DNA of 64,000 bases from positions 1 through 64,000 of the forward strand of contig JAJZBZ010000001.1 in NCBI GenBank assembly GCA_021846275.1, written 5' to 3'. A program made the translations under genes and the position numbers. Shown one piece after another: positions 46,466-49,810 of this stretch. Source of the DNA: Acidobacteriota bacterium. Its GTDB lineage: Bacteria; Acidobacteriota; Terriglobia; Terriglobales; Acidobacteriaceae. A model generated the notes under the pieces. The model was not told the origin of the DNA and ran no database searches. It saw only the letters and a list, made by a program, of their open reading frames with translations. Within the stretch, counting starts at the first letter, position 1. The number at the start of each line of letters is the position of its first letter.

Positions 46466-47992
46466 TCAGGTCGAAATACCCTCGAAATCGCCGATGTGAA
46501 TCATGGCGGCGAGAGTGCGAATGTCGTTATGGGGTTCGCGATCCTCGTCAAGATGAGCGATGCGGCTGCGGATGAGCGCATGGGCCTGCTGAAGTTTTTT
46601 TGCGGGCTTCAGCGGCAGGCGATAGTCAAGTCCCTGCGCGGCACAGAGAAGCTCGATGGCGAGAATCCACTCCAGATTGTCCACGATGCGGCGCAGTTTG
46701 AGCGCACCGGTCATGCCCATCGAGACATGATCCTCTTTGCCGCCGGAGGTGGGCACGGAATCCGTGCTCGACGGATGAGCCAGTACCTTGCACTCGTTCA
46801 GCAGCGCCGCGGCAGTGACGTGAGCGATCATGTAGCCCGATGACAGACCGGCATCGGCGCAGAGAAATGCGGGCAACCCCTCGTTGATGTCGGGATTGAC
46901 GAGGCGGTCGATGCGGCGCTCTGAGATGCTGGCCAGATCGGTGAGCGCGATGCACGCGTAATCGAAGACATAGGAAAGCGGCGCGCCGTGGAAATTGCCG
47001 CCGGAGAGAACATCGCCGGACGCGCCATCGCTGAAGACAAGCGGATTGTCCGTTGCGGAGCCGGATTCCGTCTCCAGCACCTGACGCGCGTGAGCCAGAA
47101 CTCCGAGTACCGCGCCGTGTACCTGGGGCATGCAGCGCAGGCAGTAAGCATCCTGAACACGCGGATCGTCCGTGCGATGCGAATCGCGAATCTCGCTCTC
47201 CTGAACCAGCGCCGACAGGTGAGCCGCAGCCTGCAACTGGCCCGCATGTGGGCGTGCGGCGTGGATTCGCTCGTCAAAGGCGACAGGCGTACCCTTAAGC
47301 GCCTCCAGCGTCATCGCTCCGGCCACATTTGCAAGATGAGTGAGCCGCTGAGCACGAAGCACACTGGCCGCGCCGACTGCGGTCATCGCCTGCGTGCCGT
47401 TGAGTAGCGCAAGACCCTCCTTGGCGGCAAGCGCGATGGGCTGAAGTCCGGCTGAGCGCAGCGCCTCAGCGCCAGGCTGGCGCTGACCATCGACGATGGC
47501 CTCACCCTCGCCGATGACGACCAGAGCCAGATGGGCAAGCGGTGCCAGATCACCGCTGGCACCCACCGAGCCGCGCGCCGGGATGACGGGATGAACGCCT
47601 GCGTTCAGCATCGCAATCAGCAGTTCCACAAGCTCCACGCGCACGCCACTGAAGCCCTTGGCCAGCACGTTGGCGCGCAGCAGCAGCATGGCGCGGCTCT
47701 CTGATTCGCTGAGTGGGTCGCCAAGTCCACAGGCGTGGCTGCGCACCAGATTGGTCTGAAGTTGTGCCAGTTTTTCCCGTGCAATGCTGACGTCGGCGAG
47801 CTTGCCGAAGCCAGTGTTGACACCGTACATCGTGCGGCCAGCGGTCAGGATGGATTCAATGACGGCGCGGCTGGCCTGTATGCGCTCGCGCGCGACAGGA
47901 GCAAGAGCAACCGGCGTGAGAGACTGGGAAACACGGTGAATCTGCTCAAGCGTGAGAGGCGAGCCATCCAGCAACAGGACATCGTTCTTCAT
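46466..47992 (-). CDS. hutH: Histidine ammonia-lyase
   Basis: A 508-residue enzyme that converts histidine to urocanate, first step of histidine breakdown. The Ala145-Ser146-Gly147 triad in GSVGASGDLAPLAHLAL forms the MIO electrophile, and the Tyr motif MYGVNTGFGKLADV is conserved. The other hut genes are not in the window. The gene is divergent from an Lrp/AsnC regulator across about 100 bases, which suggests local control by amino acids. Confidence 0.95.
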   Translation of the reverse strand: MKNDVLLLDGSPLTLEQIHRVSQSLTPVALAPVARERIQASRAVIESILTAGRTMYGVNTGFGKLADVSIAREKLAQLQTNLVRSHACGLGDPLSESESRAMLLLRANVLAKGFSGVRVELVELLIAMLNAGVHPVIPARGSVGASGDLAPLAHLALVVIGEGEAIVDGQRQPGAEALRSAGLQPIALAAKEGLALLNGTQAMTAVGAASVLRAQRLTHLANVAGAMTLEALKGTPVAFDERIHAARPHAGQLQAAAHLSALVQESEIRDSHRTDDPRVQDAYCLRCMPQVHGAVLGVLAHARQVLETESGSATDNPLVFSDGASGDVLSGGNFHGAPLSYVFDYACIALTDLASISERRIDRLVNPDINEGLPAFLCADAGLSSGYMIAHVTAAALLNECKVLAHPSSTDSVPTSGGKEDHVSMGMTGALKLRRIVDNLEWILAIELLCAAQGLDYRLPLKPAKKLQQAHALIRSRIAHLDEDREPHNDIRTLAAMIHIGDFEGIST

Positions 47993-48091
47993 TTTTTCTA
48001 CGATAAGCGGCGCATTCTGAAAAGTACAGATTCTCCATGTGGTAATTTATCTTTCTGTAGTATGTTTTCACGGTGAATGGAGATTTCTACG

Positions 48092-48658
48092 ATGAATTCA
48101 ACGGATCGTCGCCCGTCGGCAACCACGCCGGATGAAGAGTCGCCGGAGATAACGGGCGAGTATGACAGCTATCTGATGGATAGCTTTGGGCGCAGCCTGC
48201 TGAAAGAGTTGCAGGAGAACAGCCGCCTGTCCGTCGCCGAGCTTTCACGGCGAGTGGGCCTGTCTGCGACAGCAACGGCGGAGCGACTGCGACAGATGGA
48301 GGAGCAAGGGATTCTGCGCTCGTACACGGTGATGATTGATCGGCTGGCGCTGGGGCTGGACGTGATGGCCTTCATCCGCATGACCTGTGACGGTCAGCAC
48401 TACTACCGGTTGATGGAGTTCATCCAGACGCTGGAGGAAGTGAGGGAGTTCCATCACCTGACGGGCGGGGACGCGTTTCTGCTGAAGGTGACGACGACAT
48501 CGATGAGCGCGCTGGAGGCTCTGATAGAAGCGCTGCTGCCATATGGGAATCCAGTCACCAGTCTGGTGCTTTCGACGCCGATTGAGGCGCGACCCTATAA
48601 CGTAACTGGAAACCTGACTTCAGCACCGCGCCGGAATCGCGCAGCGCGCCGACGCTGA
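48092..48658 (+). CDS. Lrp/AsnC-family transcriptional regulator
   Basis: A 188-residue regulator. After an acidic N-terminal extension of about 30 residues (longer than typical Lrp) comes the AsnC helix-turn-helix (GRSLLKELQENSRLSVAELSRRVGLS) and the ligand-binding RAM domain (VREFHHLTGGDAFLLKVTT). Start at 48092 is preferred over 48077 because GGAG lies nine bases upstream. Probably controls divergent hutH. Its 3' end overlaps the convergent ATP-grasp gene by 39 bp. Confidence 0.85.
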   Translation: MNSTDRRPSATTPDEESPEITGEYDSYLMDSFGRSLLKELQENSRLSVAELSRRVGLSATATAERLRQMEEQGILRSYTVMIDRLALGLDVMAFIRMTCDGQHYYRLMEFIQTLEEVREFHHLTGGDAFLLKVTTTSMSALEALIEALLPYGNPVTSLVLSTPIEARPYNVTGNLTSAPRRNRAARRR

Positions 48659-49810
48659 GCGTTCGCGGAGCATGGCGTGAAACGCGGAGTAGATGCGATC
48701 GACAGCCACGCGGCGATAATCCCAGAGCGGGTCGTCGGGCGGCCGAAGCACGGCCATGTTGGCGTTGGCCTCAAAGAGCAGAATGCGCGGGGCTGCATTG
48801 GATCGAGCAGCTTGGCATGAGCTTGAGTCGGACTCACTGCGCACCACGTCTCCGAAGTCCAGACCGAAGTCGATGCCTCCGTAATCAAGGTCCAGCGCGC
48901 GCTGAATACGTTGCAGCGTGGCGAGCACGGCAGAGCCCAACACCTCGTCCATGGCCGCGAGAAAACGCGCGTCCTCCAGCCGATGTGCCGCATTCGCAGC
49001 CATCTCCGCAGAAAAAAAATGGACCTTCCAATCGCTGGAAACGGCCAGGTGTACGGGATACATCTGACCATCCAGAAAAAGTACGCGATATTTGCGACAC
49101 CATCCATCGCCGGAGCGTGTGGGCAAGTGCTCGACGAGCAGAATCTCGTCACCAGGAAGCTGCGCCAGAGATATTGGCAGGTCTTCGAAGCGGTCCAGGC
49201 GCAGGCAGTTCTGCCCCATGTGAAAGCCCGGCGCGCGCAGCAGGATCGGCAGTTGCAGAGAGTGACGCTCCAGCAGCTCAGGCAGCGTGTCCGGGCCAAG
49301 CTCATCGCGTTGGACGCGAAGGGTGTGCGCCGTTCGCACACCGGGCAGCAGGCGCAGCCGCGCTGCGTTCTGAGCGCGAGACGTGAGCCGCACGGTGGCT
49401 GGCGCATTCAGGACGGGAGCCGTGATGGTGGCAAGAATTCGTTCCGCCTGCGCCAGCGCATCGCCGCGAACATCGGCGTCGCCGATGGCGTTGAGAACGA
49501 GATCGTGCTCAGGCAGCGGCAGGTCCGGCTGCCAGAACTCGACAAGAAGAATATGCACGGCAAAGAGCTTGTCATCCAGAAAACGATGGATAAGCGCGTT
49601 GCCTGCAAGGATCGATTGCAGCACAAGTACGCGCGCGAGAGGCACAGAACCGTGGAACGGCAGTGCTACCCAGGCCCGCAAGTCAAGCGCACGGCCAAGC
49701 TGTGCTGCTGCATCGTGCATCCTGCCGGACTGGCGCAGTTGGTGAAATGCAGCGAGGTGTGCGGAGCGATCCGCTGAAGTGATCCTCGGCGTGGAGAGTT
49801 CCGCAGTCAC
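48620..49810 (-). CDS. ATP-grasp-like protein of unknown function
   Basis: A 396-residue protein without signal peptide. The C-terminal half carries ATP-grasp-type features: EILLVEHLPTR near the nucleotide site, DLDYGGIDFGLDFG, and the terminal FEANANMAVLRPP, where E-x-N is the usual metal-binding pair. A preceding segment (PVLNAPATVRLTSRAQNAARL) also fits this group. The N-terminus is helical (TPR-like). Members ligate carboxylates to amines or phosphates in peptide or antibiotic synthesis; no substrate is known here. It is the only leftward gene between hutH and mqnE. Confidence 0.55.
   Translation of the reverse strand: MTAELSTPRITSADRSAHLAAFHQLRQSGRMHDAAAQLGRALDLRAWVALPFHGSVPLARVLVLQSILAGNALIHRFLDDKLFAVHILLVEFWQPDLPLPEHDLVLNAIGDADVRGDALAQAERILATITAPVLNAPATVRLTSRAQNAARLRLLPGVRTAHTLRVQRDELGPDTLPELLERHSLQLPILLRAPGFHMGQNCLRLDRFEDLPISLAQLPGDEILLVEHLPTRSGDGWCRKYRVLFLDGQMYPVHLAVSSDWKVHFFSAEMAANAAHRLEDARFLAAMDEVLGSAVLATLQRIQRALDLDYGGIDFGLDFGDVVRSESDSSSCQAARSNAAPRILLFEANANMAVLRPPDDPLWDYRRVAVDRIYSAFHAMLRERSASARCAIPARC

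Follow-up and report, generated by a model that had tools for sequence, protein, structure and literature searches.

A family of ATP-grasp ligase-like proteins, many paired with a PLP-dependent decarboxylase, and a member without that partner in an acidobacterium

Introduction

RimK, ArgX and LysX are ATP-grasp ligases whose substrates are proteins or carrier proteins. An ATP-grasp ligase that works with a PLP-dependent decarboxylase is found in the butirosin pair BtrJ/BtrK, which acts on an acyl carrier protein. Here, we describe a protein that resembles the first group in its predicted fold and that has many relatives accompanied, like the second, by a decarboxylase.

The gene lies in a stretch of 64,000 nucleotides, hereafter the window, at the start of contig JAJZBZ010000001.1 of an Acidobacteriota bacterium of the family Acidobacteriaceae (assembly GCA_021846275.1). 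A previous model-made reading of the window, based on the letters alone (the sequence-only reading), had proposed an orphan ATP-grasp-like ligase with an E-x-N metal site and a helical N-terminus, without partner genes to indicate what it makes, which might produce a small peptide or modify a protein in response to an adjacent amino-acid regulator.

Results

The open reading frame at 48620–49810 on the minus strand is real and encodes a 396-amino-acid protein from a GTG start. It is a single-copy gene, the sole match to the protein in its own genome being itself (E ≤ 10). Searched alone, the protein matched no Pfam and no NCBIfam family at E ≤ 10, did not reach the curated cut-offs of the RimK family profiles PF08443 and TIGR00768, and had no match among PDB sequences. 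When the 93 rows of an alignment of the family (A4) were searched, nine gave RimK profile matches at E ≤ 0.1, the best at 3.4e-4, and the Pfam ATP-grasp matches were weak throughout. A profile search against the PDB gave a top E value of 0.19, to a D-Ala-D-Ala ligase, which is not significant and was not used as evidence.

An AlphaFold2 model built on the 93 sequences of A4 had a pLDDT of 92.9 and a pTM of 0.90; a model built from the single sequence had a pLDDT of 37 and was discarded. When the A4-based model was compared with solved structures, the highest VIA Z score was obtained with RimK (20.0, spanning 266 residues), followed by ArgX (19.6), LysX (18.8), glutathione synthetase GshB (18.2) and D-Ala ligases (≈17). 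By Foldseek, the best matches were LysX and ArgX, with an E value of 5.9e-10. The structural matches cover residues 56–392, and in the model the protein is a complete ATP-grasp fold with a pre-ATP-grasp domain, the two together occupying approximately residues 57–390 (48641–49642, minus strand). The ATP-grasp-like class proposed from the sequence is thus borne out by the model. ITPK1 and PPIP5K2, kinases of the ATP-grasp fold, also aligned, at a Z of ≈16, as would be expected if the protein were a kinase or another phosphotransferase that is not a ligase. These two rank below RimK, LysX and GshB, and a ligase fits better with the pairing with an amine-producing decarboxylase described below, so we consider a kinase very improbable.

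The E-x-N motif noted in the sequence-only reading corresponds to E347-A-N349 (48764–48772, minus strand), and a third candidate metal ligand, D314, is encoded at 48869–48871; the three residues were assigned as ligands by motif and fold, not by superposition. In A4, the aspartate and the glutamate are present in 93 of 93 rows and the asparagine in 90, with aspartate in the remaining three. These figures are biased, because the search patterns that retrieved 79 of the 93 rows themselves include the metal-site motifs. The 14 rows found without the patterns, including the window protein, give a fairer figure: 14/14 for D, 14/14 for E and 11/14 for N, again with D in the remaining three. The metal site of the sequence-only reading is thereby supported. 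Further residues set the family apart. Arg192 is present in 93/93 rows of A4 and Arg145 in all 92 rows filled at that column, at positions that match those where classical ATP-grasp enzymes have lysines. Together with an RKYR motif, H254 and W261, these arginines form a signature that points to a distinct branch of ATP-grasp enzymes.

In the model, the N-terminus is helical, as had been suggested, with helices at residues 12–27 and 31–41 (helix pair at 49688–49777, minus strand). No TPR was detected in the window protein by Pfam, but this one helix pair aligns with the end of a stretch of TPR repeats in longer relatives, where the repeats are detected. The window protein also has an insertion of ≈20 residues (approximately residues 319–338; 48797–48856, minus strand), modelled at low confidence (pLDDT 63–65) and unique to it among the rows of alignments A1 and A2. 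Over 97 near-invariant columns of the family, the window residue agrees at 86 and departs at 11.

Relatives of the ligase were found in 9 of 200 genomes of the window's acidobacterial family and in 15 of 396 genomes of the phylum (E ≤ 0.001). Several of the matches in the phylum set were weak, and the genome of the window itself is counted in both figures. A scan of genome contigs with two motif patterns yielded 466 confirmed relatives, the best 80 of which were kept as loci. Open reading frames in these loci were called roughly, by length, and this missed the ligase in five of them (L079, L099, L105, L121 and L123). In the few plasmid records whose annotation was read, relatives are labelled "tetratricopeptide repeat-containing protein", "RimK family" or "hypothetical". 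In three loci (L082, L086 and L103), the TPR-ligase gene lies head to head with that of a second, distant ligase paralogue, and in four others (L098, L104, L107 and L114), it divergently adjoins a gene whose product carries LGDPVPWF.APL near its start.

Many of the relatives are proteins of ≈1000 amino acids in which a PLP-dependent decarboxylase (PF00282) is followed by TPR repeats and then by the ligase domain. The window ligase is 42–44% identical to such fused relatives, with homology over its full length. Among the best 80 of the 466 relatives, the decarboxylase was found in 33 loci by tblastn: fused to the ligase in 26, as a separate upstream gene in six, and as a gene truncated at the start of the contig in one (L120). 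In one of the six (L128), a further short open reading frame lies in between. The count based on called open reading frames was 31/80, and the direct tblastn search added L081 and L120. All 33 loci are from Acidobacteriota records. In the other 47, no decarboxylase was found within the fetched stretch, and some of these contigs are short. Clustering of the neighboring genes, based on the same rough open reading frames, revealed no family besides the decarboxylase recurring next to the ligase in more than a handful of loci. The sequence-only reading was therefore right that nothing obvious stands beside the window gene, but the broader claim that partner genes are lacking did not hold for the family, where many members share a protein with a PLP decarboxylase, have its gene as a neighbor or are inherited along with it.

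In the partner decarboxylase, the residues for PLP binding and catalysis (H, D, K, a loop Y and S) are kept in 39 of 39 aligned copies. Its closest solved relative is PDB entry 4obu (E = 4.4e-71), with weaker matches to DOPA and tyrosine decarboxylases, and it scored far below the cut-offs of the NCBIfam equivalogs for DABA, aspartate and tyrosine decarboxylases.

Co-occurrence was examined at the level of whole genomes. In the 200 genomes of the family, decarboxylase matches at E ≤ 1e-100 fell into two classes, of at least 67% and at most 52% identity. The high-identity class was present in five of the nine ligase-positive genomes, one of which is the query's own, and in none of the other 191. 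Among 22 genomes chosen for carrying a TPR-ligase, 14 had a decarboxylase of at least 49% identity and eight, including both Alicyclobacillus genomes, had no close one, showing that the pairing is not universal. The fusion or pairing of so many relatives with the decarboxylase suggests that the family probably supplies one of the two enzymes of an as yet undescribed pathway.

The association was also examined in Bradyrhizobium, the genus of L086. We searched 195 of its genomes for the decarboxylase (E ≤ 1e-100) and the ligase family (E ≤ 1e-20), and found a ligase match in 126 of the 127 genomes with the decarboxylase and in none of the 68 without it, a comparison for which p values ignore shared ancestry. 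The ligase present in nearly all of these genomes is a divergent paralogue, ≈30% identical to the TPR-ligase query, and not the direct orthologue of the window protein; a profile comparison of one such member showed homology along the entire length (hhalign E = 1.6e-52). In 102 of 105 counted genomes, it is encoded on the same strand as the decarboxylase and directly upstream of it, with a median of 71 bp between the ends of the matches. In the remaining three, the scored ligase copy lies 2.7–10 kb upstream, and the stretch from one of them (G566) shows a second, adjacent copy.

Six Bradyrhizobium stretches of ≈20 kb each were read for gene content. The operon lies between hook or hook-associated genes and the flbT and flagellin genes; FlgE and FlgK were recognized by profile in L204. 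Of 17 distinct Bradyrhizobium genomes, smaller loci included, 16 have FlbT inside the stretch that was read; the exception (L170) is near a contig end. Four of the six stretches (L199, L200, L202 and L203) contain two copies of the divergent ligase, as at L199:7101–12171. All six clusters also encode a 260-amino-acid protein (L204:7276–8058) that had no Pfam, NCBIfam or PDB sequence match; from a DAD-type motif, our guess is that it may be glycosyltransferase-like. A TPR protein with a weak heptosyltransferase (glycosyltransferase-type) hit is encoded in four of the six stretches, as is an unmodelled 536-amino-acid protein of a family that we designated A5.

The A5 family comprises proteins of ≈480–550 residues that carry SGTD and TGSKF motifs and accompany the ligase (L204:8068–9678, L084:4411–5859 and L205:8568–10112). 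No convincing Pfam or PDB sequence match was found for it, and two members tested against NCBIfam had none there. Its motifs could be those of a second PLP-type enzyme, which is a guess because Pfam and PDB lend it no support. On a Rhizobium tumorigenes plasmid, the TPR-ligase, an A5-family protein and a decarboxylase (55% identical) are encoded in a row, and in L084, from an alphaproteobacterial metagenome-assembled genome, the TPR-ligase is directly followed by an A5-family gene.

The flagellar setting raises the question of whether the ligase modifies a protein in the manner of RimK, adding an amino acid or an amine, with the flagellar filament or hook-associated proteins as substrates of the Bradyrhizobium version. 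The closest solved folds are those of enzymes that act on proteins or carrier proteins, TPRs often bind proteins, and the flagellar location of the operon, the recurrence of FlbT and the TPR protein with the glycosyltransferase-type hit all agree with such a role. On the other hand, neighbor clustering of the other loci showed no flagellar family recurring next to the ligase, no flagellar gene is annotated on the 15-kb R. tumorigenes stretch (the gene table of which may be incomplete), and little of the TPR is left in the window copy. We regard protein modification as rather unlikely, although it is the main rival reading as to the acceptor.

In a quick tree, the window ligase formed a clade with those of G131 and L125 (SH-aLRT 100); L071, L076, L081 and L096 join this clade in a group of seven rows (SH-aLRT 99). 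The decarboxylase lies directly upstream of the ligase in L076 and L081, and the genome of L071 encodes one (71%) outside the stretch that was read. At E ≤ 1e-100, no decarboxylase was found in the genome of G131 or in that of the window, where the best match was partial at 34% identity (assembly 98.64% complete); none was found in L125 within the 21-kb stretch that was searched. With the decarboxylase present in L076, L081 and L071, and with a helix pair that matches only the end of the TPR stretch of longer relatives, the window lineage appears to have parted with both the decarboxylase and most of the TPR but to have retained the ligase.

Such a copy might be a decaying remnant of a lost module. 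Two other ligase copies do look broken: L039 (in G169) has an in-frame stop and L041 (in G045) is in fragments, which may reflect draft errors, and both genomes are without a close decarboxylase. The insertion in the window protein and its 11 departures from near-invariant columns would fit the same picture. However, the frame is open, the catalytic residues are kept, and the NG86 dN/dS ratios within the clade are 0.10–0.18: 0.14 and 0.10 for the window against each of its two nearest relatives, pairs whose dS (2.0 and 2.4) is close to saturation, and 0.18 between those two relatives (dS 0.41), for which YN00 gave 0.25. YN00 gave no value for the two window pairs. Thus, the window ligase looks to be under purifying selection, and we think it quite improbable that it is non-functional.

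The regulator named in the sequence-only reading is an Lrp/AsnC-family protein by Pfam, encoded at 48077–48658 on the plus strand. It is convergent with the ligase, their 3' ends overlapping by 39 bp, so that the ligase is not on the promoter side of the regulator. On its other side, and divergent from it, lies the gene for histidine ammonia-lyase, HutH (46466–47992, minus strand), identified by NCBIfam TIGR01225 above the cut-off. The two genes together span 46466–48658, and from the recurrence of the pair, given next, the regulator is likely to be a local regulator of histidine breakdown. We read the 30 acidobacterial loci with the best-scoring matches to the regulator: it stands beside hutH in 29, and the ligase adjoins the pair in two, the window and G131; L125 provides a further case. 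In 27 of the 30 loci, the regulator and HutH occur together without the ligase. Among eight sampled members of the genus, the regulator is present in eight, the ligase in three, and the ligase at the window's position in two. As the Lrp–HutH pair is conserved without the ligase, the regulator is no guide to the product of the ligase, and we do not judge it part of the ligase system. The proposed response to the regulator is therefore weakly founded.

These data also bear on whether the protein could act alone as an L-amino-acid (dipeptide) ligase, by now tied to the neighboring histidine metabolism and using, for example, histidine or urocanate. The order ligase–Lrp–HutH is kept in the window, G131 and L125, as this would require. 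Yet the pair does without the ligase in most loci, and a urocanase gene elsewhere in the window genome suggests ordinary histidine breakdown. A place for the ligase in histidine metabolism was consequently set aside, and we hold a stand-alone dipeptide ligase of this kind to be improbable. Upstream of the ligase, on the same strand, is mqnE, which tblastn did not find in the stretches of L035 (16.5 kb) and L125 (21 kb); thus, this neighbor is not conserved either.

Discussion

We consider it probable that the window protein is a carboxylate–amine (or carboxylate–thiol or –hydroxyl) ligase from an unmodelled branch of the ATP-grasp enzymes, descended from a decarboxylase–ligase module. In the parent module, the group II PLP decarboxylase would convert an amino acid to an amine, and the TPR/ATP-grasp part would activate a carboxylate with ATP, through an acyl phosphate, before coupling it, most likely to the amine made by the decarboxylase. 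The lineage of the window would have shed the decarboxylase and most of the TPR and retained the ligase, which presumably now takes its amine or amino acid from elsewhere. The predicted fold, the conserved metal site, the fusion, adjacency and co-occurrence with the decarboxylase, the lack of a close decarboxylase in the window genome and the purifying selection come directly from the analysis; we infer the acyl-phosphate chemistry, the substrates, the sequential action of the two enzymes and the order of the losses. A wider and rather unlikely scheme would be a single pathway spanning several phyla, in which the amine becomes attached to a protein or glycan, with a version in Bradyrhizobium recruited to modify the flagellar filament, a fused version in Acidobacteriota, and the ligase alone, supplied by another donor, in the lineage of the window.

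The protein falls outside every Pfam and NCBIfam model, yet appears to be an ATP-grasp ligase whose partner and setting are out of the ordinary. The pairing with a decarboxylase leads to a direct, testable hypothesis about the substrate. In Bradyrhizobium, the near-perfect co-occurrence of the pair and its position in a flagellar cluster, wherever this was read, raise the possibility of a new flagellar modification chemistry. If our reading is true, the window copy is a natural case of a ligase that outlived its partner enzyme.

By title and abstract, the literature searched holds no description of the decarboxylase–ligase pairing; the ATP-grasp survey of Iyer and others (2009) fell outside its scope. 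The pairing is likewise not described in the available portions of PMC8939145, PMC3765264, PMC6406911 and PMC8429497. In PMC3765264, as far as its text was available, the sole occurrence of "ATP-grasp" is in the title of a reference.

Of the described ligases, RimK, ArgX and LysX are the nearest, sharing with the window protein the fold, the domain order and the D/E/N metal site. The window protein is only 9–14% identical to them, however, and has no RimK-family sequence match; its family differs in the arginines at 192 and 145 and the RKYR...H...W signature, and in having relatives with an N-terminal TPR and a fused decarboxylase. GshB and the D-Ala-D-Ala ligases have the fold in common but are remote, without a significant sequence match. 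Among solved structures, entry 4obu and the DOPA and tyrosine decarboxylases come closest to the partner decarboxylase. The butirosin pair offers a parallel in organization, but BtrK has another decarboxylase fold, whereas the decarboxylase that accompanies the relatives of the window protein is of the AADC/DABA type.
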